Virus record (IMG/VR): IMGVR_UViG_3300037138_000128
Location: 1-28,782 of that record
DNA length: 28,782 nt
Source of the DNA: a virus
Reading direction: 5' to 3' (one strand)
The position numbers were made by a program, and so were the translations under genes. Below the pieces are notes generated by a model. It did not search any database. It saw only the letters and a list, made by a program, of their open reading frames with translations, and was not told the origin of the DNA. Position 1 is the stretch's first letter. Each line of letters starts with the position of its first letter. Positions 4,434-27,403 of this stretch are shown in pieces.

Positions 4434-5036
4434 CTATAATACCTCCGGCTTGCCGTATTTCTCCAAGAGAAATTTCTTCTGCTCGGCGTTCATGTACGGG
4501 TACTCATCGACCTCTTTCTTGAACTCATCGGATTTACACTTCGGACATGCAACTTCGAGATGGATTTTCCACCCGTAAGCGTCATCCAGGCTGTTTGGAT
4601 AAAGCACATTCATACGACCACCGTGACACGGTTTGTATCCGCAGCTTTCACGCGACGGGGGAGGAACGCACATGACGCAGGAGTCCTTCGGCTTCTTATG
4701 CTTGCACCACGTAGGCCCACCGGCACGGACCCAAACCTCGTAGTTGGTTTCAAGGCATGCGTCCAAATTCGAGGGATAGAGGAGGAACTCAGCGAGCTTG
4801 CTCACCGTAACGACGCGGACAGCCCAGAAGTCGTCCTGCACGACGAATCGGATGATCTTCCCGCAACGTTCCTTGTCGTACCCGGCATCGATCAAACGAT
4901 TGCCATCCAGGACGCCTCTCTGGTTGGCTCCGGGTGTGTCCAGGTATTTAGGCTCGCCCAGCATCTTCCACAGGTAGCAGTGGATTTGGAATGCGTCCGA
5001 GTTCTCGGCTGGCCGGTATTTTTTTATTCCGCTCAT
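4434..5036 (-). CDS. Cys-rich protein of the replication cassette
   Basis: A 200-residue protein. The segment at 46-95 (NRLIDAGYDKERCGKIIRF, then a DDFW turn and a Ser-Lys-Leu-Ala helix) resembles the small helical domain found at the C-terminus of many phage replication-initiator or helicase-loader proteins. The second half has seven cysteines: C111, C120/C123, C132/C137 and C164/C167, plus His113 and His138, enough for one or two zinc sites. It sits two bases after the DUF1376 gene, downstream of the helicase. A role as helicase loader or DNA-binding partner is plausible, but the family is not recognised and this is inference. The C-terminal helix (NAEQKKFLLEKYG) is a possible contact region. 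Confidence 0.7.
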   Translation of the reverse strand: MSGIKKYRPAENSDAFQIHCYLWKMLGEPKYLDTPGANQRGVLDGNRLIDAGYDKERCGKIIRFVVQDDFWAVRVVTVSKLAEFLLYPSNLDACLETNYEVWVRAGGPTWCKHKKPKDSCVMCVPPPSRESCGYKPCHGGRMNVLYPNSLDDAYGWKIHLEVACPKCKSDEFKKEVDEYPYMNAEQKKFLLEKYGKPEVL

Positions 5037-5038
5037 GC

Positions 5039-5530
5039 TTAGATGTCCTCGACCAAAAATGGTGATTTCTCTTCTTTCTTCATTCTAACTGCAGAAGCAG
5101 AAGCAGATGCAGATGCAGAGCTATCGCCAAGCATTGCCTTAGCATTGCTTGTGCCATTGCTTGTGCCATGCTTGTGCCATCTCTTCTTAGCCCCAGCCTG
5201 TCCACGCTTCACCATGTTGTTTAGGAAAGACTTACGTTCTTTCCACTGGGCTGCCATCTTGGGATTCGTGATGAGGTTTTCTCCACACGGCACGAAATTC
5301 TCCAGAATTTGCTTCCCGTGTTGACGCCACTCTGCCTCCGTACAGTTCGCGTATTTGCGAAGCAGAATCTCGTCATCTGGTAGTGCCGCTATGCCGGAAT
5401 CCCACATGAAATCCAGCAGGTCACGGTAGATGCCGCGAGCCGCAGGAGACATGGCCAACCGCGTCGGACTCGCGAGCCAATCCTTCACCCACCACTGGTA
5501 AGCCGGTGGCTTATTCGATGTCTTCGGCAT
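5039..5530 (-). CDS. DUF1376 (YdaU-like) replication initiator-type protein
   Basis: A 163-residue protein. Residues 9-102 carry the DUF1376 signature: PPAYQWWVKDWL, the helix ARGIYRDLLDFMW, GIAALPDDEILLRKYANC, and a final KERKSFLNN helix. These proteins have a winged-helix fold and sit next to phage helicase or loader genes, where they are thought to act in initiation of DNA replication. The ATG at 5530 is one base after the helicase stop and has GGGGGG seven bases upstream; an in-frame extension into the helicase gene was discarded. The tail is odd: a basic helix, then GTSNGTSN and a run of SA repeats encoded by tandem DNA repeats, ending in a charged tail. The usual C-terminal partner domain is missing and may be supplied by the next gene. 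Confidence 0.85.
   Translation of the reverse strand: MPKTSNKPPAYQWWVKDWLASPTRLAMSPAARGIYRDLLDFMWDSGIAALPDDEILLRKYANCTEAEWRQHGKQILENFVPCGENLITNPKMAAQWKERKSFLNNMVKRGQAGAKKRWHKHGTSNGTSNAKAMLGDSSASASASASAVRMKKEEKSPFLVEDI
5091..5120. repeat. 6-bp tandem repeat, five units, in the DUF1376 gene
   Basis: Five consecutive hexamers of the form GCAGAR or GCAGAT (plus strand) encode the alternating Ser-Ala run near the C-terminus of the DUF1376 protein. Each unit keeps the reading frame, so gain or loss of units would only change linker length. Confidence 0.8.
5132..5177. repeat. 11/12-bp imperfect tandem repeat in the DUF1376 gene
   Basis: About four units built on CATTGCTTGTGC lie side by side: two identical 12-mers flanked by 11-base variants. 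Because the unit length changes from 11 to 12, the same DNA is read as WHKH in one unit and as GTSN in the next two. The repeat lies in the unstructured linker after the winged-helix domain. Confidence 0.7.
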
Positions 5531-5531
5531 T

Positions 5532-7136
5532 TTAAACACCCCCCATTTCCGGGTCCGAATCAAGACCGAGGCTGTCATCCACGGAATCGATGATCGTCTC
5601 CTTCCACTTGGTAACATCGGATAGGGTCTTTCGGTCAATCATGCTCTGAATCCGTGCGTCGATCTGGGCGGCGCTGGCACCTACATAGCGGGAATTTTCG
5701 TCGATGCGGACCCGTGCCGACGGCGGATATGCACCGTTGCGGACCTTTTGAGTTTCGACCAGGAGGTCCCCTGCACGCTTCATGATTTCATCCGAGAAGA
5801 TGCTCACGATGAAATCCATGTCGCGGAAGAAATCCGAATGCTGGTTGATCGATGTCATGTCGTGTTTCTTCTCACCCTCCTTCTTCTTCTTGGCTTCCTT
5901 GTATCCGGTGCGGTTGATCTGGACCGGCGTGATGACGACCAACCCGCGTCCCTCGTCGAAATTGCGACTGAGATCGAATGCCTTGTGGATGTAGCCGATG
6001 ATGTTCTTGTCGAACCATGCCGGGTCACCGGGAATCTCCAGGCGCGTCAGGTAGTCGATGCCGCATACATCATACTGGTTCTTCTTCTGGTTCGCATTCA
6101 GGTGCGCTATCAGGGTGTCCCAGTCGGAGAGGCGCTTGACCTCGAACAAGCCCGGGATGCCTACGCGGCTTTTGATGTCGTCTAGAATCCGCTGGAGGTT
6201 GGCGAAATCCTCCTTGCTTGCTGTTCGCTTGAAGAACGTATCCATGGCCGGAAGTTCGAATTCGTCTCTATACCGGTAGGAGTGGAGGAACGCGAGGTGA
6301 ATCCACACATTCATCGGTTCGGTTTCCTTCACCCATAGGATGACGTTCTTCCCCTGGCACGCCATGTTGTAAAGCATGGTCAACAGGAGCGTGGACTTGC
6401 CGTCGTTGGCGAATCCCATGATGCCGATGAACTGGTTAAGGTTCTTCGTGATGACGATGTGGTTGTCGACGTGCGGAAAGCCGGTGAGGATGCGATCGCT
6501 TCCGTCCCCGCTCATCCATCGCTCTACTTCGAGCTTGACGGCCTCGGTGTTCTCGTGGAGAGCGCCCTCCGGCGTCAATCTCGTCTTTTGAAGGTCGCCC
6601 TTCGACCAGAACTCCCGGATCATCTGCACGGCATCGTCCGGTGTAGATTTACGATCAGGTGTGCCCTTCTTGCCGGTGATCTTGGTTTGGCCGAGAGCAA
6701 ACGCCTTGTAGACATCGGCTTTTTTGGTGTGAATGGCGAGCCGCGTGTCCTCGACCAGCTTCTCGATCAGCGGACCCGTGGCCTCGAACAGGACATTGGT
6801 TTGCGTCTCAGGGTCCTTGATCCCCTCGTTCTCCCGCATATAGGTGCGCATCCGCTCGAGTTCGTCCCCGAAGTGCTTCAGCTTTTCTGCGGTCGTGATG
6901 TCCTTCTTGCGCAATGTCACGTAGTCGCACAACACCTGTTCATCGGGGCAGTAGCCGTTGGCTTTGTCGTAGGAGAGGATCAACGCGAGAACCAGGCCGC
7001 ACGGCTCGTCGCCCGCGCCGGATACGTCGAGGATGTGTAGCGTCTGTGCGGCCCACTCCAATTCGCGGCGGTAGCGGACGATCAGATCGTGTTCGTTGTT
7101 ATTGAGCAGAAGCCAACAGAGGTTTTCGGATAGCAT
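5532..7136 (-). CDS. Replicative DNA helicase, DnaB-like RecA fold
   Basis: A 534-residue protein. Residues 1-140 form a helical N-terminal domain with little DnaB-N similarity. The C-terminal RecA domain shows Walker A GFANDGKST at 241-249, an ETEP segment (271-274) in the place of the DnaB catalytic-Glu motif, Walker B VCGIDYLTRL at 357-366, and a VVITPVQIN sensor strand at 400-408. The protein should unwind DNA at the phage fork as a hexameric ATPase. The ATG at 7136 (MLSENLCWL) has GAAGGG upstream and keeps the leader hairpin outside the gene; a longer frame to 7211 runs through that hairpin. The DUF1376 gene follows after one base, so the two are probably co-translated. DnaB-like rather than RepA- or gp41-like is a judgement from motif spacing. 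Confidence 0.88.
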   Translation of the reverse strand: MLSENLCWLLLNNNEHDLIVRYRRELEWAAQTLHILDVSGAGDEPCGLVLALILSYDKANGYCPDEQVLCDYVTLRKKDITTAEKLKHFGDELERMRTYMRENEGIKDPETQTNVLFEATGPLIEKLVEDTRLAIHTKKADVYKAFALGQTKITGKKGTPDRKSTPDDAVQMIREFWSKGDLQKTRLTPEGALHENTEAVKLEVERWMSGDGSDRILTGFPHVDNHIVITKNLNQFIGIMGFANDGKSTLLLTMLYNMACQGKNVILWVKETEPMNVWIHLAFLHSYRYRDEFELPAMDTFFKRTASKEDFANLQRILDDIKSRVGIPGLFEVKRLSDWDTLIAHLNANQKKNQYDVCGIDYLTRLEIPGDPAWFDKNIIGYIHKAFDLSRNFDEGRGLVVITPVQINRTGYKEAKKKKEGEKKHDMTSINQHSDFFRDMDFIVSIFSDEIMKRAGDLLVETQKVRNGAYPPSARVRIDENSRYVGASAAQIDARIQSMIDRKTLSDVTKWKETIIDSVDDSLGLDSDPEMGGV

Positions 7137-7156
7137 GGATACCCTTCGGATGATTA

Positions 7157-7180
7157 GGGGGCGGGAAAGGTGCCGCCCCC
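7157..7180 (-). promoter_or_regulatory. GC-rich hairpin in the helicase leader
   Basis: A perfect 8-bp stem (GGGGGCGG / CCGCCCCC, all G-C) with an 8-base loop lies 20 bases upstream of the helicase start in the gap 7137-7240. No U-tract follows in the direction of transcription, so it is not a standard terminator. It may reduce read-through from the membrane-protein gene, protect the 5' end or tune helicase translation. Confidence 0.5.
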
Positions 7181-7214
7181 AACCGTGCTGGATAAGAGAC
7201 ACGGGGCGCACACC

Positions 7215-7220
7215 ATAATA
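7215..7220 (-). promoter_or_regulatory. Possible -10 hexamer for the helicase operon
   Basis: TATTAT lies in the intergenic gap, preceded by GGTAG on the minus strand. It would start transcription near 7208, about 70 bases before the helicase ATG and upstream of the GC hairpin. No acceptable -35 hexamer is seen at 17-18 bases, so the call is weak. Confidence 0.3.
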
Positions 7221-7240
7221 CTACCTGGAAGGGGAATTAT

Positions 7241-7918
7241 TTAGGGAAGGTTGAAATTTTCATGGAAGCGCCAGATAATATCGCATTGACTCTCTTCGTC
7301 CAGCCGTTGCCGTCGCTGCTCCCGATCGACCGAAGAGGTTTCGCGCATCTTGTTTTCGAGTTTGATCACGTCGTTCACGGTGTAGATTGACCATATGGCG
7401 TAGGCGATCACGATCACTATCCCGATTAGCGCCAAGTTTAGCGCGACCCATTCCATCGCGCCCGCGACGAATACGAGGATGATGAACGAAAGGATTTGCA
7501 GGATTCCGATGAATGCATACCACACCTGCGACGGCAGCCACAGGATGCTGTTCTCGAATGCCGCGAGCTTCTCTCCCTGGGGTCCGCCGCCCGTCGTCGT
7601 CGTGGGCAGCACCGGCGAGGGTGATGCGCAATTGAATAGGAGGCCAAAGCCCGCGATGATGCAGAGCACGGCGAAGATAGTTTTGAAGAGGAGTCGGATG
7701 TTGCGCCAGATGACACGTAACACGACTCGCAGCGCGAAGTGGATGGGGTTCTCTGCCCTTTCTGATTCCAGGACGCGGTACGATATCCAAAGGAGTAATG
7801 CGAGGATCAAGACCGCGAGGATGAAGTTTCCGAAGGTGTGGGCGCTGATCCCGTCGCCCCGGTTGAACTGGTCCCAAGCACTGCTATAGACGGGCGTCAT
7901 ATACTCGCTGGTTTGCAT
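7241..7918 (-). CDS. Four-helix integral membrane protein
   Basis: A 225-residue protein with four clear hydrophobic segments at about 31-49, 76-96, 132-153 and 157-180. A Thr/Gly/Pro-rich loop (98-115) separates the second and third, and a charged, Arg-rich tail follows 185. The positive-inside rule places the 50-75 loop and the C-terminal tail in the cytoplasm. The loop around 98-130, which begins NCASPSP, would be periplasmic. It is the first gene of the minus-strand arm, with its own extended -10 promoter and a strong Shine-Dalgarno (GGAGG). The protein is long for a holin. A role in superinfection immunity, membrane remodelling or lysis timing is possible, but no family is recognised. 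Confidence 0.75.
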   Translation of the reverse strand: MQTSEYMTPVYSSAWDQFNRGDGISAHTFGNFILAVLILALLLWISYRVLESERAENPIHFALRVVLRVIWRNIRLLFKTIFAVLCIIAGFGLLFNCASPSPVLPTTTTGGGPQGEKLAAFENSILWLPSQVWYAFIGILQILSFIILVFVAGAMEWVALNLALIGIVIVIAYAIWSIYTVNDVIKLENKMRETSSVDREQRRQRLDEESQCDIIWRFHENFNLP

Positions 7919-7936
7919 TTTATCCTCCGCACCACC

Positions 7937-7945
7937 ATTATACCA
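7937..7945 (-). promoter_or_regulatory. Extended -10 promoter for the membrane-protein gene
   Basis: TGGTATAAT lies on the minus strand 18 bases upstream of the ATG at 7918, with a GGAGG ribosome site between. It shares ten identical bases with the element upstream of the gene starting at 3592. It faces away from the plus-strand promoter about 30 bases away. Confidence 0.55.
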
Positions 7946-7954
7946 CGCCGGTCG

Positions 7955-7983
7955 CTGAGACGGCCACCCTTTCGGGGTATTAT
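7955..7983 (+). promoter_or_regulatory. Probable promoter of the tail operon
   Basis: TATTAT at 7978-7983 is preceded at 17 bases by CTGAGA (four of six matches to TTGACA), giving a start near 7990 and a leader of about 30 bases before the ATG at 8020. It is the only good candidate in the 101-bp divergent region (7919-8019). A 13-bp palindrome (CTTTAGACTAAAG, 7987-7999) covers the predicted start and could be an operator. Confidence 0.4.
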
Positions 7984-7986
7984 CTA

Positions 7987-7999
7987 CTTTAGACTAAAG
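7987..7999. promoter_or_regulatory. 13-bp palindrome over the tail-operon start
   Basis: CTTTAG-A-CTAAAG is a perfect inverted repeat with a one-base centre, placed over the predicted transcription start. The position fits a repressor site, or a short hairpin at the mRNA 5' end. No regulator gene is identified in the window. Confidence 0.35.
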
Positions 8000-8019
8000 G
8001 TCTTCCTGGAACAAAATGT

Positions 8020-8541
8020 ATGAGCGACCTCATCACAGTCCCCCTGGCTAACTTCGAATTCAAGTTCCGCCGCCTGGTATGGAAGGAGGAGTTTGAGATG
8101 AAAACAAAGGGTTTGGACGAGAAGTGTGTCTATCTTGCCACAGCCTTGGTTGAGGTTAGCGGATTGAAAATAAAGAACTTTCAGGATGCCTACCGCCTGA
8201 TGACCTCGCTTCCGAGACCGATCCTGGGGCGCGTCCTGATCGTTTACAAGGGCATGCAGCCCGAGAATCAACACTTTACGACCGGCAATCTCTACAAGGC
8301 TCCCGACCCTATCCAGTACTCCCGCCAAGTAGAAATCATCCGTGACGATGCCGAGACGACCTCTGATACGCTCGTAAAGCGCATGGAATCAACATTCGGC
8401 AGAAAGGAGCTTGCCGAAGCCGCCGAGATTGACCGGCAGATCGTGAGAGGCAGCAAGTACCGTGGAGCCATCCCGAAGTTCGCTGACGAGGAGGACAAGA
8501 ATCCGTTCGGAGGCAAGTTCAAGGCACGCGATGCCAAATAA
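8020..8541 (+). CDS. Hypothetical pre-tape-measure protein 1
   Basis: A 173-residue protein and the first gene of the plus-strand operon. The N-terminal part (ITVPLANFEFKFRRLVWKEEFEM) looks like the start of tail-assembly-type proteins. A helical middle contains FQDAYRLMTSLPRPILGRVLIVYKGM, and the C-terminus (FADEEDKNPFGGKFKAR) is charged. Its place two genes before a short gene and the tape measure matches that of tail assembly chaperones in many phages, but there is no sequence signature to prove this. It overlaps the next gene by 11 bp. No other in-frame start upstream keeps the leader. Confidence 0.7.
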   Translation: MSDLITVPLANFEFKFRRLVWKEEFEMKTKGLDEKCVYLATALVEVSGLKIKNFQDAYRLMTSLPRPILGRVLIVYKGMQPENQHFTTGNLYKAPDPIQYSRQVEIIRDDAETTSDTLVKRMESTFGRKELAEAAEIDRQIVRGSKYRGAIPKFADEEDKNPFGGKFKARDAK

Positions 8542-9580
8542 AGACATCAAGGGCATGTCCGGCACGGAGCTGATGAATGAAATCTTCTCCGGCTCCATCC
8601 AGCACGCCGAGCCGGAGCTCATCGCCGATGTCCGGTCGCGGGTGTCCGACGCCTGCGAGGAGCTTCTGGACATGGGTGCCAGAATCCGTCCGCTCATGGT
8701 CGGCACCAAGCGCGTAGGGTGGGTCCGGGGAGTCCACACGACCGAGCGTAAACTGCTCTACCGTTGGTACCAGGACTTGGAATTCGTGGAGAACATCCTG
8801 CTTTTGGCCACGTCGTTCACGCGGGATCAGCTAAACAAATTGACCGGCGTCGAGGTCTTTGCGCTGGCGCGAGTCGTCAAGGAAATGACGGAATACGACA
8901 TCAGCCTTGCACCCTATATGACGGCCTACTCGACCACCGGCCTCAGCGAATTCCAGTGGCACGGGAAGGGAATCGCCCTAACATCGTTCGAGAACAAGGT
9001 CGTCACTATGCCCGACGGTGCCCAACTCAAGATTCTTGCGCCGCCGCACCACGCACGCCTGTGGGCCACACTTTGCACTTACCGGGAATTGAACAAGACA
9101 CGCCTCGACGCCATGATGAACGCTACCATGATCGTGCGGCCCTGGGCTGGTCATTCCGTGGATGGCTTCGCGGCGGAACTCAAGACCGCCGGGCGGTTGC
9201 TACAGCCGGACGCCATGGAGGCGTGGGAGAACATCGTCAAGCAGCAGACCGTCAACCTGGACGACGGCTGGGGTCATCCATCCGACACGACCGAAGGCCT
9301 CATGCGGGAACTCAAGGGCATGCTGTCCGACGACAAGCACGAAAAGGTCATGAACGCATTCGCCCGCCAGCAAGTCGCCGCCGCCGAGGCGGAAGCCAAG
9401 CGCCTGGTGAACATCGTATCCAAGCATGGGGGTCCAGGGGTCTCGCAGAAGGAAGGCTTTACGATCATCACCAAGGAACAGGTGCGCGAGCGGGAGAAGA
9501 ATCTGCGCAAGGGGCGTCCGATCATGCGGGACACCGAGCTTGTCGAGAATCCGAAGGACAAGATCAAGCGTTACCAGTAA
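8531..9580 (+). CDS. Hypothetical pre-tape-measure protein 2
   Basis: A 349-residue protein starting MPNKDIKGMSGTELM; the frame is open back to 8447, but this ATG has AAGG nearby and overlaps the preceding stop, the usual coupling. The middle (about 75-220) is rich in aromatic and hydrophobic residues and looks globular. Residues 250-349 are charged and helical (EKVMNAFARQQVAAAEAEAKRL, QVREREKNLRKGRP), probably a coiled coil. No domain is recognised. As it lies between the first operon gene and the tape measure, it may act in tail assembly or be a minor tail component; that is inference. The overlap with the previous gene is in the +1 frame relative to it. Confidence 0.75.
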   Translation: MPNKDIKGMSGTELMNEIFSGSIQHAEPELIADVRSRVSDACEELLDMGARIRPLMVGTKRVGWVRGVHTTERKLLYRWYQDLEFVENILLLATSFTRDQLNKLTGVEVFALARVVKEMTEYDISLAPYMTAYSTTGLSEFQWHGKGIALTSFENKVVTMPDGAQLKILAPPHHARLWATLCTYRELNKTRLDAMMNATMIVRPWAGHSVDGFAAELKTAGRLLQPDAMEAWENIVKQQTVNLDDGWGHPSDTTEGLMRELKGMLSDDKHEKVMNAFARQQVAAAEAEAKRLVNIVSKHGGPGVSQKEGFTIITKEQVREREKNLRKGRPIMRDTELVENPKDKIKRYQ

Positions 9581-9623
9581 GTTTCGATGTTTGGACTTGA
9601 GATACCATTTCAGGGAGGAAGTT

Positions 9624-10229
9624 ATGAGTGAAGTGACGAATGAAGTAGTGAACGAAGTAAAAACGGAAACACCGTCGTTGGAAGAAGTTCTTGCCGGAGT
9701 TAGATTTTTTGGCATCGAGGACTATGAGGAAATCCTCACCCTCGACGCCGGTGGCCGCAAGGTGCAGCTCCGCATCAGCAACATTCCCACGGAGGAAGAG
9801 GTCGCCGCACTTCTTTCCCAGGAGCAGTCGAAGGGTTATATATGGGTGCAGCTCATCAAGTGCGAGATGCTGTCGCGTGCGATATCCTGGATCGACGGGG
9901 TGAACATCCGTGAATTGAAGGGTACCGCCCGCTTCGTGCCGGACCCGACCGACGCGACCAAGGCGAAGAAGGATGTCCAAGTCGTGCTCCGCAATCTCAT
10001 CCTCGGATGGGGTCAGGAAGTGACGACCATCCTCTGGAAGGCGGTCATGGTCCACAGCCAGCGCATCGAGGATCGCCTCGCGAAGTCGTTCCCGGATTCC
10101 GCCGTCATGACGGAAGTCGAGAAGCGCTTCATGGATCAGGCGCTCCGCGAAATCGAAGCCGCCAACAAAAACGTCATTGCCGAAACGATCAATGAGTTGA
10201 CCGTCGAAGATAAGCCAAAGGAAGAATAA
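9624..10229 (+). CDS. Pre-tape-measure protein 3, chaperone-like
   Basis: A 201-residue protein with a strong Shine-Dalgarno (GGAGGA at 9614-9619), which decides the start at MSEVTNEVV rather than the longer frame into the previous gene. The acidic N-terminus is followed by LDAGGRKVQLRISNIPTEEEVAALL and GYIWVQLIKCEMLSRAISWIDGV. These segments remind me of conserved proteins just before the tape measure in other large phages, which take the place of tail assembly chaperones. The C-terminus is acidic (ELTVEDKPKEE). It ends eight bases before the tape measure start. The chaperone role is inferred from position and style; no catalytic motif is seen. Confidence 0.75.
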   Translation: MSEVTNEVVNEVKTETPSLEEVLAGVRFFGIEDYEEILTLDAGGRKVQLRISNIPTEEEVAALLSQEQSKGYIWVQLIKCEMLSRAISWIDGVNIRELKGTARFVPDPTDATKAKKDVQVVLRNLILGWGQEVTTILWKAVMVHSQRIEDRLAKSFPDSAVMTEVEKRFMDQALREIEAANKNVIAETINELTVEDKPKEE

Positions 10230-13626: not shown

Positions 13627-15228
13627 ATGCCAAGCCCAAACAGCCCATCCTCGGACACGGTCAACGGATACATCGCGACATCCGTGGCGAATTACAATCT
13701 TCCGCCGAACACCGCCAACATCATCTCGGGAATCGTGCAGACGGAGTCCGGTTACAATTCCAATGCCATAGGCCAAAACACCAATGGTTCTAAGGATTTC
13801 GGCCTGATGCAATTGAATTCCAACAGCTTCGACAGCAACGGCAACTTCAGCCCTAACTCCTCGGTCCGGGGTTTCGCTCCGCTTGATCCGGCGCAGAACA
13901 TCGCCGGTGGCGTCGCCTACTACAACTACCTGTACCAGAAGAACAACGGCGATGAGGCGACGACCATCTCCCAATTCCACACCGGGTCCGGGGGAATATA
14001 CGATCCGGCCTACGTGGCGAAGGTGATGGCGGGTGCCAAGACGAGTCTTACGAGCGGCGGACCGACCATCGCTGGAAGCCAGGAGAAAAACATCGGCGGG
14101 AACAATGTCTCGCAGATCATCAATCCGGACCCTATTCCGTACCAGCCGCTGCCCGTCGCGTCGATCACCCCGGGCACATACGAAGCGCTCGTGGTCGCCT
14201 CCTCGTCCACGCCGGACCCAGCCGGGCTAGGCAACCAGCCCTGGTACCAGGACAAGAACCTCGTCGACGCCAACACGGAGACGGGCAACTATCCCGTTTC
14301 GTTCCAGGTCTACCTCGACCAGGCGAATCCGGCTTCCATGTTGACCAATCCGACGACGGGACAGCCTATCACCGTCAACCTGAACTGCTCCATCTCCCGA
14401 TACAACATTTCTCTGAAGCACCTCGCCAACATGGAACCGACTCGCACCGGCTTCCACATGACAATGTGGGGCATGCAGGCGGATATGATCACCGGGGAAG
14501 GCTCTACCGGCGTCTTCATGAACCGCTTCGGGCTCACCGACTACTTCAGTTTGGCGGGCGTGCCGTCGTATGCATCGACGCTGGTCACGAACGCCTACAA
14601 GCTTACGAACAGCGGCGTAGATATCTATCAGGTCGCGGCGGAGTCCGGCAACCCCATTCCCCCGGCTAACCATGCGGTCGCCGCCGTACAGCAGTTGGCT
14701 TTTTCGCGGTCCCCAACGATGGACTTGCAGACCAACTTCGAACCTTTCCGCATCCAGGCCGAGGACGCCTTCCAGGAGTTCCTGGCCACCTTCAAGATGA
14801 ACGCTACCACATGGCTGCACCCAAGCGGATTCGGGTTCGATTACGGCAATCAATCTCCCGACATCCCGAACCCCAATCAGACAGCGGTGTTCTCGCAGAC
14901 GGTGGGGGCTTCAAGCGACATGGTCAAAGCCCGGAACAACGATGTGTACAAGCGCGGCTATGTGGTGATGCGCTTTCACAACAGCCAATATCTCGGCTTC
15001 TTCAAGTCCTTGAGCTTCACGATGGATGCCAACAAACCGTACCAGTGGCATTTCAATTTCGTGTTCCAGGTCGAGCGCACCCTCACGCTTTTCTATTACG
15101 CGACGAGCGGGGTATTATCCAACCTTGTTACGGGCACCATCGTCCGCCCGGGGACCGGAGCCATTGAAACGCCTATTGCCCCAGTCATAGGGACACAAAC
15201 ATTTTCTGGATCGGTAATTCCGGGGTAG
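13627..15228 (+). CDS. SLT-type lysozyme domain fused to a tail hub protein
   Basis: A 533-residue protein. Residues 15-140 match a soluble lytic transglycosylase (lysozyme-like) domain: IISGIVQTESGYN with Glu40 as the catalytic acid, GLMQLN at 59-64 and NIAGGVAYYNYLY at 91-103, then an active-site-lining SQFHTGSG and a Y-VAKVMA ending. After a linker, residues 180-510 form a beta-rich structural domain with FHMTMWGMQADMITGEGSTG, AVQQLAFSRSPTM and YLGFFKSLSFTMDANKP, similar in layout to the next gene product. The protein should sit at the tail tip and cut peptidoglycan during entry. Its last eight residues, FSGSVIPG, recur at the end of the 999-residue hub protein. The gene begins 11 bp after the tape measure. 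Confidence 0.85.
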   Translation: MPSPNSPSSDTVNGYIATSVANYNLPPNTANIISGIVQTESGYNSNAIGQNTNGSKDFGLMQLNSNSFDSNGNFSPNSSVRGFAPLDPAQNIAGGVAYYNYLYQKNNGDEATTISQFHTGSGGIYDPAYVAKVMAGAKTSLTSGGPTIAGSQEKNIGGNNVSQIINPDPIPYQPLPVASITPGTYEALVVASSSTPDPAGLGNQPWYQDKNLVDANTETGNYPVSFQVYLDQANPASMLTNPTTGQPITVNLNCSISRYNISLKHLANMEPTRTGFHMTMWGMQADMITGEGSTGVFMNRFGLTDYFSLAGVPSYASTLVTNAYKLTNSGVDIYQVAAESGNPIPPANHAVAAVQQLAFSRSPTMDLQTNFEPFRIQAEDAFQEFLATFKMNATTWLHPSGFGFDYGNQSPDIPNPNQTAVFSQTVGASSDMVKARNNDVYKRGYVVMRFHNSQYLGFFKSLSFTMDANKPYQWHFNFVFQVERTLTLFYYATSGVLSNLVTGTIVRPGTGAIETPIAPVIGTQTFSGSVIPG

Positions 15229-15240
15229 AGAGGAAAAAGC

Positions 15241-16287
15241 ATGGGAAATCCCACCAACATCAGCAACGCAAACAGCACCAGAGTCCAAGGCAACCAGGAC
15301 ACCACGCTCAACCTCCTTCCGATCAGAGGCGAGAAGCACCTCGTTCAGGTATCTATATACACGGTCGAGGATGAGGCATTAACATCCAACGAAATCCTGC
15401 AGGCGGCCAATATTGCCGTCGCACTGAAACCGCTCACGAATTACATCACGATTCGCGTACAGAATCGCGGAATCAACACCATCGGCAACCCCGATCCGAC
15501 GCAGGATGCGGTATACCGCTTCCTCATCAATCCGTCCACGGTCCAGATAAACCACAGCACGCTGGACAATCAAAGCTATTCCAGAGGCGGATGGCAATTC
15601 GGCGTCTGGGGCGAGGACTTCGTCCGCATCAGCTTGTCCGGGAAGACGGCGGGACAGTATTTTGCGTTCGGACTCACGGACGCATACGCCGAATACACCA
15701 AGAGCTTCCGCAACCTGGAAATGCTCATCGACACCTTCGAGAACAACGGCTACTGGTTCGAGGGCGAGGCCGCATACGGAAACACGCAGGCGCTTAGCTT
15801 TTCGCGTCGCCCGATCAAGATGCACCAGGATGTCATCCTCAACTGCAAAGAGTTCATTTGGTACGGGATGTTCGACACCCTTGAGGTGAGCCAGGACGCG
15901 GACAACCCGTTCCTGTCGAACTTCACCATGTCGTTCGTAGCGTGGAAGGAAAGATTTCGCGGCGATTCACCGTACTATAACAACATGCCGAACAACGTGC
16001 AGCGGGGCAACTCGTACACGGTGTACCAGAACGCCATGAATCCGAACTCGAACCCGAACATTACCGTCACGCCGCCTTCCATGACCGGCACTTCGACGAG
16101 TGCCCAGACCCAGCCGCCCCAGCCGCCGCTTTCCTCGACGGCGCAGTCGCCCGCTGCGGCATCGGAGGCCGCTTCGAGCGTATTGCCGACGACATCGACG
16201 ACCGGCGTGGATTACTCGCCGACCCCTCCGATTTTCAATGCCGACACGACGTACAAGAGTTACTGGAACGGGACATTGGACGCCTAA
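15241..16287 (+). CDS. Tail hub/baseplate protein, paralogue of the SLT fusion
   Basis: A 348-residue protein with AGAGGAAA before the start. Residues 90-240 contain INPSTVQINHSTLDNQSYSR, FGVWGEDFVRISLSGKTAGQ, ALSFSRRPIKM and the strand FLSNFTMSFVAWKERF. The same order and spacing of motifs occur in the second half of the preceding protein (LNCSISRYNISLKHL, GMQADMITGEGSTG, AFSRSPTM, YQWHFNFVFQVERT), so the two probably arose by domain duplication. This copy lacks the lysozyme domain. The last 90 residues are Ser/Thr/Pro/Gln-rich and unstructured. It is joined to the next gene by TAATG. A place at the tube-baseplate junction is likely but inferred. Confidence 0.75.
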   Translation: MGNPTNISNANSTRVQGNQDTTLNLLPIRGEKHLVQVSIYTVEDEALTSNEILQAANIAVALKPLTNYITIRVQNRGINTIGNPDPTQDAVYRFLINPSTVQINHSTLDNQSYSRGGWQFGVWGEDFVRISLSGKTAGQYFAFGLTDAYAEYTKSFRNLEMLIDTFENNGYWFEGEAAYGNTQALSFSRRPIKMHQDVILNCKEFIWYGMFDTLEVSQDADNPFLSNFTMSFVAWKERFRGDSPYYNNMPNNVQRGNSYTVYQNAMNPNSNPNITVTPPSMTGTSTSAQTQPPQPPLSSTAQSPAAASEAASSVLPTTSTTGVDYSPTPPIFNADTTYKSYWNGTLDA

Positions 16288-19286
16288 TGGGAAACATACG
16301 CAATCTAGCTCAAAGCGCACAAGAGCGGGAGATAATCAAAACCTGCCCCGATCTGGTCGTGTATTTGGACGGTCTGCCCTATCTCAAGAACGTCTTCCTG
16401 AGCGCCAACCCGAGCAATCCCGTCATCGTCAACTTCAACGACTACATCACGTCGTTCAACTCCAACTATGATGTGGACAACATGATCCCGAGCGGATCGT
16501 TCACGCTGACCGTGCCCGCCCACGAACGCCATCTGTTCCAGGTCCCGGGCGGAACCAACATCATCCAGACTATGATGCAGGTCCAGGTCTACGCGAAGGG
16601 CTACTACTTCGCGTCCAACGGGAACACGCTCTTCCGCCGCGTCTTCAAGGGCCTGACGACGCACATAACCCACTCTGACGACGGCAAGACGCTTACGATC
16701 ACCGTACAAATCCAGGGGATTATGCGCCTGTTCGAGCTGATGCAGATCGACCTCAACCCGGCTATCCAATCCAGCGCCGCCGTGCACGTGACGCCGATGA
16801 CCAGCATCCTCTGGAACATGAATCCCTATGCCCAAATGGCCTTCACGTTCCTCTATCCGTCGTTCACGGATGGGTTCTACGTGAGTTCCCTCCGGCAGAA
16901 TATCATTCAGAATGACCCATACTTCAACGCCCTCACGGACGGGTTCGTAGCCAAGTTCCAGGGCATTCTCTTCGACATCTGCCAGGATTCGCACATCTAC
17001 GGACTGCAGAATAAGGACATCAAGAGCGTCATCCCCCTTTTAAACAGCATAGTGCAAAAATCGCCGAACAAAGGCGCGAAGGGGTGGTCCCTCCTCTCCG
17101 TCGAGAACGCATGGTTTTCCAAGAGAAAGGACTCCGATTACCAGGACATCGTCAACGTAGATAAAATCCGCGATTACCAATGCGACCACGGCATAGGCTC
17201 CATCCAGCTCATCAATGGGCGCGTGGTTTCCCGTGCCGAGCTTTTGCGCACCATAACGAGCGTCATCAACTTCGAGTGCTTCCAGGACATCGACGGCCAG
17301 ATCATCATCAAGCCGCCGCTCTACAACCTCGATGTGACGAACCTTTCGACCAGCGCGACGGCGAGCCAAACCTACTCGCAGCAGAACCCGAATACGGACA
17401 TCAACAACACCAACAACCCGTTCATCGTCCATCTGTCTGAAATCAAGAGCGAGCAGGAAACCGAGGACGAGAAGGCCGTGCGTTCGACGCGAATGGCGAT
17501 CCAGGGCAACACCACGACCGACACGCAGTACTTGCAGATTCCAGGCGACCTGCGACCAGTCGCCGAATACATGGACTTAGCAAAAATCGCCCGCTACGGA
17601 TTGCGGCAGGAACCGGCACGCACCATCCCATGGCTGCGTGACAACGACAACTACTCGACCTTTGCACAGGCATGTTCAGAGCTTGCTCTTGCCAATCGAG
17701 GATACCGCACCTATACGTTCAGCATTCCTATGCGCCCGGAAATCCACCTTGGATTCCCGATGTACATCCCGCATCGCGATATGTACGGCTATACCAAGAA
17801 CGTGTCCATCTCCTACAACCAGGGCGGCGGGGCGACTATGACCGTCACGCTCGACACGTTGCGCAAGCGTCCCATGTACCCGCAGAAGGGGGACACGCAA
17901 CAGGGTCAGCCTAACACTGTGTTCGCATCGCAGCCGAACCTCGTGTTGAAGTGGACGGCTGGGCCGACATCCCTGCAGACCCAGACCCAATCCAATATTC
18001 AGCAAGCCGCCAACACCACCGCAACATCCGAAAGCCAGCAACTCAGCAGTTTTTTGGGTGCGAACACCGCCCCCACCACCATCGCATCCCCCGGCAAACT
18101 GGCTGGCCAACAGATTACGCTTCCGCGTCCGGGACCGAATCCCAGTGCCGTCACGAGTCTCAGCATCAATTCGCCCATCACGGCTGATCAGAATGCCGTC
18201 ATCGCCGATCAGCAGGCGACGTATGCCAGCTACTATGGACCGTCTTCCGATACAGCCGACAACGCCTGGCGCATCCAAGCGGACACGGACCCTCTCTATG
18301 CCACGGTCGGGACATCGACCGCCGCTACGCCAGCGGCACCGACATCGGCACCGACACCCGCTAGCCTTGAATCGTACCTGCCTCAATCCATCACGCCCAC
18401 GACACCCGGCACCATAACGCCGTTGCCACCATACTCAGCCGCATTCGTGGCGGGGAGCCAGAGCGTTTCCGTCCCGGGCGGGGCACCGGGGGTCAACACC
18501 ATCCGCGCCGTTGTAGGCACCGGCATCTTCGTCAACCAGCGCCATGTCGACCAGGACTACTATGCCGATGTGTTTATGACCATCCCCTACACGGACGGCA
18601 AGGGTTACGAGGTCATCTCCCCGTTTCCGTGGGGTCGCTACATCGACCTCAAGACGGCTCTCCAGGAGTTCACTCGGGATGGCTACGTCTTACAGACCGA
18701 TGCTACCGCAGCACAGAGCACCGTCCAGACACTCCAGAACACGCAGACGGCCCTCTTCGCGGGACTAGGCCAACCGACTAGTTCCACCGATCCGGCACCA
18801 AGCGCAATGGCGGCTCTGAACACGACGGCTGGGACGACGAACAGCCCAGTGAATTCAGGTAGTCCGACGGCGCAGACCACGACACCGGTCAATTCCTCTG
18901 GAAATCCGGCGACCGGCGCGACGGGGAAGCCGATTACGATTCTACAATTCCCGCAGTCGGTCCTAAACACGGCTAATATCACCGTGTTCGAATTGGACTA
19001 TTCGGGCTTCAATCCGTCCAGCGCCAGTACTATAACACAGGGCCAGCCGGACACGCTTCTCAACAGCGAACTAGTGCAGAACACGGTCACGGCGGAACAG
19101 ACCAAGCTTAGCGTGTTCCTCACCGGTGCAGTCGTCCTGTCAGGCTCGGCGCTCCAGGCGCAGGTCCTGGCAACCCCGGCAACTCAACAGCGTCCGTCAA
19201 CGCCGGGACCGGTGGTGGCTGCCGCAGTGCCCACAGCCCCAGCCGTCGCGGCGGAGGCATTTTCGGGATCGGTAATCCCAGGGTAA
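16287..19286 (+). CDS. Baseplate hub protein (gpD/gp27-like) with long linkers
   Basis: A 999-residue protein that starts in the TAATG overlap. Residues 20-145 (PDLVVYLDGLPYL, SGSFTLTVPAHERHLFQVPG, VFKGLTTHITHSDDG, TLTITVQIQGIMRLF) show the beta-barrel style of T4 gp27 / lambda-P2 gpD hub proteins, and more hub folds follow to about 540. From about 545 to 735 the chain is Thr/Ser/Pro/Gln-rich. A folded island at 738-805 (VVGTGIFVNQRHVDQDYYAD, GKGYEVISPFPWGRYIDLKT) and more linker follow, then FSGSVIPG at the very end, as in the SLT-fusion protein. Typical hubs are 350-450 residues, so the linker half is unusual. The next gene is the spike, as in other phages. Confidence 0.8.
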   Translation: MGNIRNLAQSAQEREIIKTCPDLVVYLDGLPYLKNVFLSANPSNPVIVNFNDYITSFNSNYDVDNMIPSGSFTLTVPAHERHLFQVPGGTNIIQTMMQVQVYAKGYYFASNGNTLFRRVFKGLTTHITHSDDGKTLTITVQIQGIMRLFELMQIDLNPAIQSSAAVHVTPMTSILWNMNPYAQMAFTFLYPSFTDGFYVSSLRQNIIQNDPYFNALTDGFVAKFQGILFDICQDSHIYGLQNKDIKSVIPLLNSIVQKSPNKGAKGWSLLSVENAWFSKRKDSDYQDIVNVDKIRDYQCDHGIGSIQLINGRVVSRAELLRTITSVINFECFQDIDGQIIIKPPLYNLDVTNLSTSATASQTYSQQNPNTDINNTNNPFIVHLSEIKSEQETEDEKAVRSTRMAIQGNTTTDTQYLQIPGDLRPVAEYMDLAKIARYGLRQEPARTIPWLRDNDNYSTFAQACSELALANRGYRTYTFSIPMRPEIHLGFPMYIPHRDMYGYTKNVSISYNQGGGATMTVTLDTLRKRPMYPQKGDTQQGQPNTVFASQPNLVLKWTAGPTSLQTQTQSNIQQAANTTATSESQQLSSFLGANTAPTTIASPGKLAGQQITLPRPGPNPSAVTSLSINSPITADQNAVIADQQATYASYYGPSSDTADNAWRIQADTDPLYATVGTSTAATPAAPTSAPTPASLESYLPQSITPTTPGTITPLPPYSAAFVAGSQSVSVPGGAPGVNTIRAVVGTGIFVNQRHVDQDYYADVFMTIPYTDGKGYEVISPFPWGRYIDLKTALQEFTRDGYVLQTDATAAQSTVQTLQNTQTALFAGLGQPTSSTDPAPSAMAALNTTAGTTNSPVNSGSPTAQTTTPVNSSGNPATGATGKPITILQFPQSVLNTANITVFELDYSGFNPSSASTITQGQPDTLLNSELVQNTVTAEQTKLSVFLTGAVVLSGSALQAQVLATPATQQRPSTPGPVVAAAVPTAPAVAAEAFSGSVIPG

Positions 19287-19289: not shown

Positions 19290-21785
19290 ATGCAAACATA
19301 TACCGACAACCGGGACAACTACAGACCGACGATAGCGGAGACCAACCGCCAGGACATGCTCTACACGCCGTTCACGGCGACAGTCATATCCGTGGACTAT
19401 GAAGGCAAGGTCCTCACTATCCAAAACGACAAGGATCGGCTGACTTACTCGGACATCCGCGTGTGGCCGTCCAATGCATCGTCAGCCGAATCCACCGATG
19501 TGAATATGCCGGAGCAGGGCTCCCGCTGCATAGCCATCCATCTCTACCACTCAAGCGGCTTTTCGGAAGTAGCCATCATCTCGTGGATCACGACCAGCAC
19601 CATCCCCGCCATCGACGCCGTCGCCAACCGTTGGACGGAGGGCATCGACGGCCTCACCGCACGCCGCCGTGGTACGTACCGCAAGGCATTCCCCGGCCAG
19701 AAGGCAATGACCACCACGTCCGGCTACAGCGAAAAAGTCGATGAGGGTTGGGACACATCGGCGTCCGATTTCAGCCGCGATAAGCTCGATGTGTTCCGCC
19801 GTACGCGCACATTGACGACGAGCCGCAACGTGGGCTATGCGGACTCCGGCCTGAGTTTCGCTGGACCGGTGAACCGTCCGCCTCAGTCGCCGTCTTTGAC
19901 GCTTAACTCCCAGATCATACCGACGACGCTGCCGGACGGGACGCAATCATGGGTGCTGTTCCTCAATTCCAATGCCGCTTACCAGGACCGCTATCTCAAG
20001 GGAACCGAGAACGTCATCCCATTGTCCGAGAAGGTGGAGAAGATTCAGGAGTTCGCGCTCGACTACCCCATGCCGCAGGATGTCCTTGAGACGCCCCTCA
20101 TCGATTTCATCCTCGGAACGACGCAGCCGGTGAACTTGCAGACCACCGTCAACGAAGAGGGCACGCAGCTTCCGAACGGCTCGACCACGAACGTGGCCTA
20201 CGACAGCGATTCTTTCATGGTCGATCAGGCGTGGGACAACCCGCAAAGCCGCACTGCTCCAGCTCTTGGGCCGACGACGCAGGAAGGGCAGACTCCGGCG
20301 CGTCGCGGATTCATCATCGAAAAGGCGGAGGGCACCCTCGTCGGGTCCAATCGGTTCGACCCTGTGACCTTCGGATACCCGCTCATCCCCATACTGACCC
20401 CGTACAACTATCTTGGCCGTTTCGGTGCCAATTTCGAGTCGGGGTACCTCCCGGTCGGCGACGACCAGGGTGAGGACTTCGTGGAAACCCGCATGGCGGC
20501 AAGCTGCTACTCCGTCCGCTTCCCGTACGAGTTCAACACTACCCGCTGGGACGTGACGAAGGAAGGCATGCTCCTGTTCGAAGTCGGCTCGTCCATCCCC
20601 CAGGCGAACAACCCGTGGCAGGATGCGCTGGATGGCGGCGATGCGCCGTATGAATATCCGCACGGTGCCGGACGCTCAGTGGAAGGACATTTGGTCGGCT
20701 CCCTCAAGCTCGTGATCGGCAAGAACATGAGCGAGGAAGATGCCGTGGATTTGCAGGCGCTGGGGCAGTGCGTGATGCGCTTCGGTGCCGACGATTGTTC
20801 CCTGCCGTACGGAGGACGCGAGGTCCTCACGCAGAACCGTGGCAAGAGCGATGCGTTCACCGCCCGCAACGGCGCACCAGGCACGCTGCAATACTGGAAC
20901 AAGTCAGCCTTGGGACAAGTCGGGAATCAGAGCGGAACGGGAACCCTCACGCCGTCCCTTACGAACAAGACCTACGGGGAGAACATCTCTATTCGCGGGG
21001 CGTCCGATGGCGGCATCGTATTCCGCTTCGGGGCACGCACGCCAGACACCCTGCGAGCCCACTTCAATAACGGCTACGCGGATGGACCCGGCGTCAACTA
21101 CCAGCCCGTGAGCAGCTACAACGCCACGAGCGGTGCCCGCATCGACTCCCATTCGCCTGGTCGTCCTACATACGGATTTGGGGATAGCGTTTATGCGTTC
21201 CATAATCTGATGAACGCGGGCCAGCCCGTGTCCGGCAAATGGCCGTATTCCACCATCAATCCCGGCCCCACCGTGAACAGCATGGACCGGCAAGGGCTTA
21301 GCATAGACTTCCATACGGTGCGGGACATCCTCATCCGCGCAGGGAAGGACACCGATCACGGGCAGTCCCTCCTTATGGACCTGGCGGGCGGACTGGTAGC
21401 CTGGATCGGTGCCGACAAGCAGGGGCGCTCCATGACCTTCACCATGGACGGCGGGATTTCAGGCGTCTTGGGGGCTACCACGACTATCGGAGCCAGCGGG
21501 AGCACGCCGGGAAAGGCGCTGCGGTTGGAAATCAACGGGGATGTGGACCTCACCGTGAACGGGAACTATCAGATGAACGTCACCGGCGACTACCTTGTGG
21601 AGGCGAATTCCGTATCCGTAAACAGCCACACGGACATGATCCATACCTGCCAGAAGATGATTAACATGGCACTGGCACGCATCACGAACGAAGCTCTCGA
21701 TATCGTCCACAGCCAGGGCGGCATCCCGGCGTCGAACGCCAACGACACAATCTCCGATGACCTTAGCAGCGACATCGTCGCATAG
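19290..21785 (+). CDS. Tail spike / central puncturing protein (gpV/gp5-like)
   Basis: An 831-residue protein. Residues 23-101 read as an OB-fold of the gpV/gp5 class (FTATVISVDYEGKVLTIQ, MPEQGSRCIAIHLYHSSGF, EVAIISWI). Residues about 742-772 carry the alternating pattern of the triple-stranded beta-helix spike (LEINGDVDLTVNGNYQMNVT, DYLVEANSVSVNSH). The middle (110-730) is a large insertion of mixed strands and loops without known domains. No PAAR motif or lysozyme domain is seen; the muralytic activity is in the SLT fusion. The tail of about 60 residues is helical. The protein is several times longer than gpV (about 210 residues), so much of it must form extra hub or spike parts. It follows the hub gene by three bases. 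Confidence 0.75.
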   Translation: MQTYTDNRDNYRPTIAETNRQDMLYTPFTATVISVDYEGKVLTIQNDKDRLTYSDIRVWPSNASSAESTDVNMPEQGSRCIAIHLYHSSGFSEVAIISWITTSTIPAIDAVANRWTEGIDGLTARRRGTYRKAFPGQKAMTTTSGYSEKVDEGWDTSASDFSRDKLDVFRRTRTLTTSRNVGYADSGLSFAGPVNRPPQSPSLTLNSQIIPTTLPDGTQSWVLFLNSNAAYQDRYLKGTENVIPLSEKVEKIQEFALDYPMPQDVLETPLIDFILGTTQPVNLQTTVNEEGTQLPNGSTTNVAYDSDSFMVDQAWDNPQSRTAPALGPTTQEGQTPARRGFIIEKAEGTLVGSNRFDPVTFGYPLIPILTPYNYLGRFGANFESGYLPVGDDQGEDFVETRMAASCYSVRFPYEFNTTRWDVTKEGMLLFEVGSSIPQANNPWQDALDGGDAPYEYPHGAGRSVEGHLVGSLKLVIGKNMSEEDAVDLQALGQCVMRFGADDCSLPYGGREVLTQNRGKSDAFTARNGAPGTLQYWNKSALGQVGNQSGTGTLTPSLTNKTYGENISIRGASDGGIVFRFGARTPDTLRAHFNNGYADGPGVNYQPVSSYNATSGARIDSHSPGRPTYGFGDSVYAFHNLMNAGQPVSGKWPYSTINPGPTVNSMDRQGLSIDFHTVRDILIRAGKDTDHGQSLLMDLAGGLVAWIGADKQGRSMTFTMDGGISGVLGATTTIGASGSTPGKALRLEINGDVDLTVNGNYQMNVTGDYLVEANSVSVNSHTDMIHTCQKMINMALARITNEALDIVHSQGGIPASNANDTISDDLSSDIVA

Positions 21786-24922: not shown

Positions 24923-27403
24923 ATGTCTGCTCTGCTCTTCTGGCAACCCAACCACGTCTACCCGCCCCTTTCCTACATCTTTGACGGAACGGGCAACATT
25001 CAATTCTCATCGGCGGGTGGAACTTCTGGTACTGTTCTTCCGACTTGGAGCATGGGAACAACGCACGACGGATCAGTCACTTGGGTATTCATCGGTTTTG
25101 GCGGCAAGATTTTCGAGCTTCAGAAGCAATACAATCAGATCGGTCCCTACTTTGAATCACTTACGGACGCTATCAGCTACAGCCGTGGTTCGATCGACGC
25201 GGGCAAGTATGTTTTGCTTAACACTGTTGGGCAACTTGACGCATCTATGGGTGGCGGAGGCGGAGGTTCGCCACCGGGTAGTAGCGATTTTGCCTACATC
25301 ACAACTGGCCTAAACGACAGCGCCACCATGACGGTCGGGACAGGCGCAATGATCACGGTCTCGGGTGATGGCGTAGTCGAATCCACGGAGCTTGCTACCT
25401 CCGGTTCTCCCGTCAACGTTTCACTCAGCACGCCTCCGTCCCACGCCGGTCAACTTCTGATTTCCCAGCCCGGAAACGTCACCGCAGTATGGGCTGACCC
25501 GCTTGTCCAAGGTTTGTATCCCCCATCGACCCGAACCGACACCGGTAACGCTGGCGGACCCATCAACCCGGTTCTCATCGGCGGCTCTGACTATGCCGGG
25601 TCTCCAGAACTTTGGAACATCAAGGTCGATTCATCCGGCAACATCTACATTGGCGGTACCGTCACCGTATCCCTGGTATCCACGACCATCACGGGAACCG
25701 TCGCGGTCACGGGAGCTTTCTATCAAGCGACTCAACCCGTAAGCGGGTCCGTTTCCATATCGAACTTCCCATCGACGCAGGCGGTAACCGGGACATTCTG
25801 GCAAGCGACTCAACCGGTCACAGGGGCTTTCTACCCCGCAACGCAGCCCGTCAGCAACGCAGCCTTGTCGGAGATGAGCTTCACCAACTACGGCTCTCCG
25901 GCCGTCGAGGCGCTGAACACGTACGTCGTCAACCCGATCAGCGTGGCATTCCCATCGTCCCTTGCGGTCACCGGGACATTCTGGCAAGCGACTCAACCCG
26001 TGAGCGGGTCGGTATCGGTCTCCAACTTCCCCGCCACGCAAGCGGTAACCGGAACCGTATCGGTATCGAATCTATCCTTCACGAATTACGGAAGTCCAGC
26101 CGCAGAGGGCTTGAACGTCTACGTTCTGAATCCGCTCTCCGTCACGTTCCCCGCAAGTCTGCCCGTTACACAGAGCACGAGTCCATGGGTCGTTTCGCTC
26201 GCTTCCACGGCTATAACAGGAAATGTCGCGGTCACGGGCGCATTCTGGCAGGCCACCCAGCCGGTGAGCGGATCGGTTTCCGTCTCAAACTTCACCTTCA
26301 CGAATTACGGCTCTCCAGCCGTGGAAGCGGCGAACGTATACGTGGTGAATCCGGTTACATTCCCTGCATCCGTAACCGTGGCAGGAACCGTAGCGGTCTC
26401 CAATTTCCCAGCAACACAGGCGGTCACAGGAACCTTCTGGCAGGCAACCCAGCCTGTAAGCAACGCGAATCTTTCATTCACTAATTACGGTTCGCCTCTG
26501 GTTGAGGGATTGAACGTCTATGTATTAAATCCAAGTTCGTCCGCCATTTCAGGAGTCATAGAGGTTTCAGCGACAACTGCACCCAACTCCAGCGGCAACC
26601 CGCTCTATGTGGATGTGACCAATACCGTCCCCGTCACGGGAACCTTCTGGCAGGCTTCGCAGCCCGTCAGCAATGCTGCGTTGTCGGAGATGATGTTCAC
26701 GCCTTACGGAAGCCCGCCATGCACCGCATTGAGCGTCTACGTCGTCAACCCGGTTTCTATTACAGGAACCGTCGCCACATCCGTCTCCAACTTCCCATCG
26801 TCACAACCAGTCACGGGAACCTTCTGGCAGGCTACCCAGCCAGTAAGAGACGTGAATCTTTCTTACACACCCTACGGCTCACCTGCTGTTGAGGCCGCGA
26901 ACGTCTACGTCGTCAATCCAAGTTCCAGCACCATATCCGGAATTATTCAGGTAAGCGCCACAACGGCGGCCAACGCAAGCGGAAACCCCTTGTACATGGA
27001 ACTGACGGACAGCGTACACGTCGCCACGATCAAGGCCGCGAGCACCGCCGCACTATCCACCGATACCGCTCTTGTGGTCACCGAGAGCGGTTCGACCACC
27101 AGCAGTTTACCGGCACAAACAGCCGTGAGCGGTGGTTCACCGGCGTCGCTGGTAGGACCAATCCTTATTCTTGCTGCGAATACCGCGAGACGTGAATGCA
27201 TAATCGTCAATACGGGCACGACCGTCATCTATTTGGCATTAGGTCAAACACCGACTACTGCAGCCTATGCGATCCCCCTATCATCATGTTCGACGGCGAA
27301 TGACGGCACCGGGGGAAGTTTTGTGTCCGATGTGTGGAAGGGGAGTATTTCCGCCATCTCATCGGCGTCAGGCGGAACCGTGGTTGTGACGGAGCTTACC
27401 TAA
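24923..27403 (+). CDS. Repeat-built tail fibre protein
   Basis: An 826-residue protein, start supported by GAGGG. Residues 6-58 form the small adhesin-like module shared with the preceding protein (FWQPNHVYPPL, GTGNIQFSSAGGTSGTVLPT, DGSVTWVFIG). A poly-Gly/Pro linker lies at about 109-120. Residues 260-695 consist of repeated units: F-(W/Y)-x-A-(T/S)-Q-P-V occurs eight times, and (N/P)YGSP with a following YV(V/L)NP six times, separated by SNFPATQAVTGT-type strands. The last 110 residues form a beta-sandwich head (ANTARRECIIVNTGTTVIYLAL, VWKGSISAISSASGGTVVVTE) seen at the C-terminus of many phage fibre proteins. The protein likely reaches the host receptor; the head is the probable binding part. 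Related repeats are common in phage tail proteins. Confidence 0.8.
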   Translation: MSALLFWQPNHVYPPLSYIFDGTGNIQFSSAGGTSGTVLPTWSMGTTHDGSVTWVFIGFGGKIFELQKQYNQIGPYFESLTDAISYSRGSIDAGKYVLLNTVGQLDASMGGGGGGSPPGSSDFAYITTGLNDSATMTVGTGAMITVSGDGVVESTELATSGSPVNVSLSTPPSHAGQLLISQPGNVTAVWADPLVQGLYPPSTRTDTGNAGGPINPVLIGGSDYAGSPELWNIKVDSSGNIYIGGTVTVSLVSTTITGTVAVTGAFYQATQPVSGSVSISNFPSTQAVTGTFWQATQPVTGAFYPATQPVSNAALSEMSFTNYGSPAVEALNTYVVNPISVAFPSSLAVTGTFWQATQPVSGSVSVSNFPATQAVTGTVSVSNLSFTNYGSPAAEGLNVYVLNPLSVTFPASLPVTQSTSPWVVSLASTAITGNVAVTGAFWQATQPVSGSVSVSNFTFTNYGSPAVEAANVYVVNPVTFPASVTVAGTVAVSNFPATQAVTGTFWQATQPVSNANLSFTNYGSPLVEGLNVYVLNPSSSAISGVIEVSATTAPNSSGNPLYVDVTNTVPVTGTFWQASQPVSNAALSEMMFTPYGSPPCTALSVYVVNPVSITGTVATSVSNFPSSQPVTGTFWQATQPVRDVNLSYTPYGSPAVEAANVYVVNPSSSTISGIIQVSATTAANASGNPLYMELTDSVHVATIKAASTAALSTDTALVVTESGSTTSSLPAQTAVSGGSPASLVGPILILAANTARRECIIVNTGTTVIYLALGQTPTTAAYAIPLSSCSTANDGTGGSFVSDVWKGSISAISSASGGTVVVTELT
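25702..27012 (+). repeat. Coding repeats in the fibre gene
   Basis: Imperfect repeats of roughly 90-200 bp encode the FWQATQPVS and NYGSP units. Some copies are almost unchanged at DNA level: the stretch starting at about 25787 (ACCGGGACATTCTGGCAAGC, then GACTCAACC) recurs exactly at about 25970. Others have drifted at synonymous sites. Such homology allows units to be gained or lost by recombination. Confidence 0.8.

Follow-up and report, generated by a model that had tools for sequence, protein, structure and literature searches.

Why do two different proteins of one phage tail, an enzyme-bearing baseplate protein and the baseplate hub, finish with the same eight residues, FSGSVIPG? The stretch of DNA that we analysed (28,782 bases, referred to here as the window) is part of a tailed-phage genome, that of a large soil phage. 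Its + strand carries a tail module running from the tape measure protein through the SLT-fusion protein, a 348-aa protein, the 999-aa hub and an 831-aa protein to more tail proteins (Table 1). As we describe below, the motif is real and old, and one of the two baseplate genes received it as a copy from the other; the finding is modest but can be tested. The attachment of enzymes to phage baseplate hubs is known for few cases, and a peptide that hub and hydrolase have come to share by copying, in two lineages with unlike sequences, is a simple testable handle on a possible common partner.

Table 1. Coordinates of the features discussed in the text, numbered from the first base of the window.
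Feature	Position	Strand	Remarks
Tape measure protein, 1125 aa	10238..13615	+	Homologue at the syntenic position in Tunturi_5 annotated as tape measure protein; without the shared tail
SLT-fusion baseplate protein, 533 aa	13627..15228	+	SLT lytic transglycosylase domain (~1-147), structural C-domain, predicted disordered tail (490-533)
30 nt before the SLT octapeptide	15172..15201	+	Homologous to the hub linker
FSGSVIPG codons, SLT protein end	15202..15225	+	Stop TAG at 15226-15228; motif and stop TTTTCTGGATCGGTAATTCCGGGGTAG
348-aa baseplate protein	15241..16287	+	Gene lies between those of the tagged pair; protein paralogous to the C-domain of the SLT protein
Baseplate hub protein, 999 aa	16287..19286	+	gp27/gp44/VgrG-type fold N-terminally (predicted); long low-complexity C-terminal region
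Hub linker segment	19230..19259	+	Homologous to 15172-15201
FSGSVIPG codons, hub end	19260..19283	+	Stop TAA at 19284-19286; motif and stop TTTTCGGGATCGGTAATCCCAGGGTAA; conserved in the relative's hub
831-aa protein	19290..21785	+	Downstream of the hub; homologue annotated 'tail fiber protein' in Tunturi_5

The tagged proteins belong to the baseplate hub region

Synteny with the myovirus Tunturi_5 and with IMG/VR relatives places the hub gene after the tape measure gene and before the spike/fibre genes of a contractile tail. Tunturi_5 (PP885688; PMC11924767), a jumbo myophage of an acidobacterium (Tunturiibacter), is the closest cultured relative and shares the gene order: tape measure, lytic tail protein, virion protein, tail protein (the hub), 'tail fiber protein' and virion structural protein. 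Its hub is 40% identical to that of the window, and its 'tail fiber protein' is 50% identical to the 831-aa protein (96% covered), which we consider a candidate partner for the tails. The Tunturi_5 ends differ, however: its lytic tail protein finishes with VQVPI and its hub with GGASGNF, and neither carries FSGSVIPG or any tail common to the two. Pfam gives a PilJ match to residues 103-182 of the window's tape measure protein (28.1 bits, cut-off 26.6), which is probably a coiled-coil resemblance.

As judged by Foldseek, the model of the window's hub resembles the MuSo2 43 kDa tail protein (E=7.4e-12, probability 1.00), with further matches to Mu gp44, T4 gp27, VgrG and many hub chains, on a model of low overall confidence (mean pLDDT 52.5). 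By this comparison the N-terminal part of the protein has the fold of the trimeric hubs of the gp27/gp44/VgrG type. It differs from them in a long C-terminal extension, disordered by prediction, that closes with an end peptide specific to the lineage: residues 906-999 have pLDDT<50, and most of the last ~95 residues are predicted to be disordered.

The SLT domain of the other tagged protein is recognised by Pfam (PF01464, E=3.2e-11, 43.2 bits against a cut-off of 21.3), and the predicted model has the SLT fold (Z up to 15.9). Profile comparison with the family of the 348-aa protein (hhalign E=2.8e-9) indicates that the C-domain is paralogous to it. Structure searches with the model of the C-domain yielded no firm fold, the Foldseek matches to PVC-type and XM1 baseplate chains being weak (E 2.6e-3 to 6.9e-3) and the model confidence low. 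The last ~44 residues (490-533) have pLDDT<50 and are predicted to be disordered. The lysozyme-like N-terminal part (13627-14100) shows much lower similarity among relatives than the C-domain does, its counterpart in Tunturi_5 is of a different type, and this enzymatic head seems to be swapped.

An identical octapeptide ends the two proteins

The translations bear out what the initial annotation had noticed, namely that the SLT protein and the hub end identically, each after a Pro/Thr/Ala-rich stretch; the motif is real, but the start assigned to it (15205) lies three bases inside it, the true start being 15202. It had also noted that no further complete protein of the window has the tail, and two scans agree: a looser six-frame motif scan of the window found no third in-gene copy, and a search with the DNA pattern of the tail, allowing up to 3 mismatches, returned these 2 sites alone (0.00 expected, 100 shuffles). 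The 348-aa protein, for one, ends SYWNGTLDA and lacks FSGSVIPG. An exact C-terminal octapeptide match in 2 of ~10 genes is far beyond chance, and one short peptide is found on several proteins of one assembly. At the DNA level 23 of 27 positions agree between the two ends (octapeptide and stop), and the 4 differences (TCT/TCG, ATT/ATC, CCG/CCA and TAG/TAA) are all silent.

The tails are old copies kept by selection on the peptide

The similarity of the two gene ends runs upstream of the octapeptide. The 30 nt preceding it are identical at 18 of 30 positions, ungapped (codon-shuffle p=0.0004), a score that no other 30-mer read in frame from the window's structural genes attains. This significance belongs to the anchored test over 15-30 nt only; codon shuffles on a longer, unanchored upstream stretch gave none (95 and 52 of 1000). 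Since the similarity extends into these 30 nt, the two tails are homologous DNA, related by an old copy. The age follows from the silent sites: 4 of the 6 four-fold sites within the tail are alike in the window's two copies, a divergence about equal to that between the window phage and its nearest relative (four-fold identity 66% for the hub and 62% for the SLT protein), which rules out recent copying.

The peptide itself is conserved above its linker, over few codons. Within the octapeptide none of the 8 codons shows an amino-acid change, and there are 3 silent changes in addition to TAG/TAA, whereas 7 of the 9 codons directly upstream are changed at the amino-acid level (Fisher p=0.003). Counted by site, 0/18 nondegenerate and 4/9 degenerate positions of the tail have changed (p=0.007). 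These tests cover 8 codons in two to three copies, small numbers that nevertheless agree, and they show the octapeptide to be under purifying selection, at least in the window's clade. The initial annotation had taken the differing codons as a sign of likely selection rather than recent copying. Selection is supported, no residue of the tail having changed against 7 upstream; setting it in place of copying is not, since the homology extends upstream, and the codon differences date the copying as old instead of speaking against it.

The motif is found in the window phage and its nearest relative only

The nearest relative is a 142 kb contig (3300047539_000078), the hub of which is 78% identical to that of the window and ends AFSGSVIPG, keeping the octapeptide while the preceding linker has changed. 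The relative's SLT protein (65% identical) ends SFIAGGPPVQ and has no intact tag. Its end (VTQAQADSFIAGGPPVQ) matches the window's SLT tail at 20/36, the second-best score of 4219 in-frame windows, where the sole better match is the relative's own hub tail; it is therefore a probable decayed remnant of an ancestral tail. Both the N- and the C-termini of the SLT protein are mosaic between the two phages. Elsewhere, a repeat-rich fibre-like protein with modules FWQATQPVS (24923-27403 in the window, 15649-17019 in L008) is 99% identical to that of the relative over 453 residues, against 53% only for the tape measure protein, which suggests that the fibre region was exchanged recently.

When every viral contig was scanned for the motif (with TCN serine codons) followed by a stop, this one relative alone came up. 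Profile searches recovered 45 hub loci and 64 SLT loci, with both proteins complete in 42 distinct syntenic loci; a scan of genome contigs yielded no hub relatives. Neither orthologue carries FSGSVIPG in the distant relatives, the hubs of which end otherwise, and a tail common to SLT protein and hub is absent in 40 of the 42 loci. The viral-contig scan and the distant hub ends gave no sign of wide conservation of the motif. Absence from the orthologues of both proteins, which the initial annotation had said would speak against a kept tail, is what we observe in all distant relatives, but the nearest relative has the exact motif on its hub. Many SLT orthologues end 9-21 residues past the conserved domain, and the tail is therefore optional for the SLT protein.

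A second lineage has a different tail on the same two proteins

Comparison of C-terminal ends across the loci revealed two tail-sharing lineages, that of the window and that of L030. The L030 SLT protein (4203-5669) and hub (6836-9940) have in common a C-terminal tail of ~45 residues, TIAQTLGP.QTTTS, which is unrelated to FSGSVIPG (SLT ...GGSASVGGLTTTMVTSATNTIAQTLGPVQTTTSGPVGDI, hub ...GGSANAGGLTTTKVTASTSTIAQTLGPAQTTTSNLPVDITP; score 147), while SLT-hub comparisons across loci score 72 at most (the window's SLT protein against the relative's hub). Two contigs near-identical to L030 (L032 and L034) likewise have the tail on both proteins and count with it as one lineage; in a fourth (L052) only the hub copy was found. 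Of the 3265 ORF pairs compared within single loci, the SLT-hub pair alone stands out, in the window and L030 lineages, and the two genes are not adjacent, the 348-aa gene lying between them. Matches of the L061 SLT protein with the L033 and L025 hubs (scores 52-53) were discarded as low-complexity proline matches across different phages. The DNA of the L030 tails is 73% identical over 48 codons, with 16 nonsynonymous against 10 synonymous codon differences, and selection on this tail is therefore not obviously strong.

In several hub clades the last ~10 residues are better conserved than the linker before them, and clade-specific end motifs follow variable linkers (LP.FLK..LNGGNS, FSIPL..GTPLAG, VNDFKNLLKP and LYP.TNQQGIK, in hubs of L009-L116). 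Some hub pairs with ~70% core identity nonetheless have unrelated ends. With ends kept within clades, yet unrelated on otherwise similar hubs, the hub end looks like a short motif exchanged between lineages. We would only tentatively take this further: in these large myophages the hub end may be a lineage-specific, exchangeable address tag, of which the tail's hydrolase at times acquires its own hub's copy, at least twice and with unrelated sequences, which would keep the two proteins together at a single site.

A proposed docking tag for a common baseplate site

We consider it an even chance (probability about 0.5) that FSGSVIPG is a selected docking tag, a tail of the hub that the SLT protein also acquired and that lets it reach the same baseplate site. 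FSGSVIPG would be the free end of a flexible baseplate-hub tail. At least 57 nt of the hub 3' end were copied onto the end of the SLT gene, no later than about the time when the window phage and its nearest known relative separated; we infer the direction, from hub to SLT gene, because both hubs have retained the tail. The two copies were then preserved in the window's lineage by purifying selection on the peptide, as seen on few codons. Both tails would reach out from the folded parts of their proteins to a pocket of one kind, on a partner in the baseplate or at the tube tip, and we infer that they dock at one type of baseplate site. Such docking would hold the hydrolase at the hub or help both proteins to assemble together. 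The tag is specific to the lineage, and the SLT protein can do without it: in the sister phage the SLT copy has decayed, and the distant L030 lineage gave the same two proteins a different common tail. Because of this different tail on the same two proteins, docking is the best-supported function.

In T4 capsid-targeting sequences and encapsulin cargo-loading peptides, too, one short terminal peptide brings several proteins to one assembly. The former differ in being N-terminal, cleaved and for capsid cargo, and the latter serve shells, whereas the window's tag is C-terminal, sits in the tail hub and is found on two proteins only. Closer to the baseplate, precedents exist for docking: the C-terminal tail of phage A-1(L) gp16 inserts into the hub barrel or, in the other conformer, onto the tube initiator (PMC10966104), and the C-terminus of XM1 gp11 wraps around gp12 (PMC10457771). 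In both, the flexible C-terminal tail of a hub-adjacent protein docks on neighbouring baseplate proteins; as described there, however, a single protein docks by its own tail, while the window has one tail on two proteins. A literature search for C-terminal motifs common to phage tail proteins found nothing. If the docking reading is true, short virion docking tags can be swapped together between proteins, which would help when other enzymes are to be loaded on phage tails.

Alternative explanations of the common tail

The main rival of the docking tag is a neutral leftover of recombination, in which the gene ends were exchanged by illegitimate recombination or homing-endonuclease repair and the tail has no function on the SLT protein. 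This we regard as possible though rather doubtful. Recombination is concentrated at the SLT 3' end, and endonuclease insertion there is a visible source of gene-end copies: the SLT and 348-aa genes are separated by putative free-standing endonuclease ORFs in L036 (4889-5626; no firm family match) and L020 (5102-5677; NUMOD3, E=0.0026), and on either side of the L036 insert stands a copy of the SLT 3' end, the two being related. Phage genomes are described as having nuclease genes at the borders of exchanged segments (PMC10448857), and both the mosaic SLT termini and the decay of the relative's SLT tail fit such a history. The window, however, has no endonuclease gene between the SLT and 348-aa genes, the changes in the octapeptide are all silent next to a freely changed linker, and a common tail recurs on the same non-adjacent gene pair, all of which argues against a leftover.

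Alternatively, a protease of the host or of the phage (prohead type) could cleave the tail, or the tail could route both proteins into one assembly intermediate without lasting docking. Such a signal would fit a short peptide that ends a disordered linker on two virion proteins, as the initial annotation had offered with a protease site or a sorting signal, but we found no specific support for either. The L030 tail differs in sequence and in its end, cleavage at the extreme C-terminus would remove few residues, and among the window's genes none was identified as a protease; we consider this explanation unlikely.

Less probable still is a nucleotide-level element preceding the next gene (ribosome-binding, regulatory or an RNA structure), with the peptide as its by-product. 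While both copies abut the next start codon, they do so at different distances (12 nt for the SLT gene and 3 nt for the hub gene), and an inverted repeat in the hub copy (GGGAT..ATCCC) is broken in the SLT copy. Third positions differ under a fixed peptide, and four-fold identity is no higher than elsewhere. An RNA or DNA element is further disfavoured by local RNA folds no better than shuffles (z -0.03, 0.55 and 1.47) and by the lack of any Rfam match. Finally, chance or convergence of two unrelated C-termini, to which the low complexity of both linkers might lend itself, is refuted by the upstream homology, the 8 identical terminal residues being preceded by 30 nt that agree at 18 positions.
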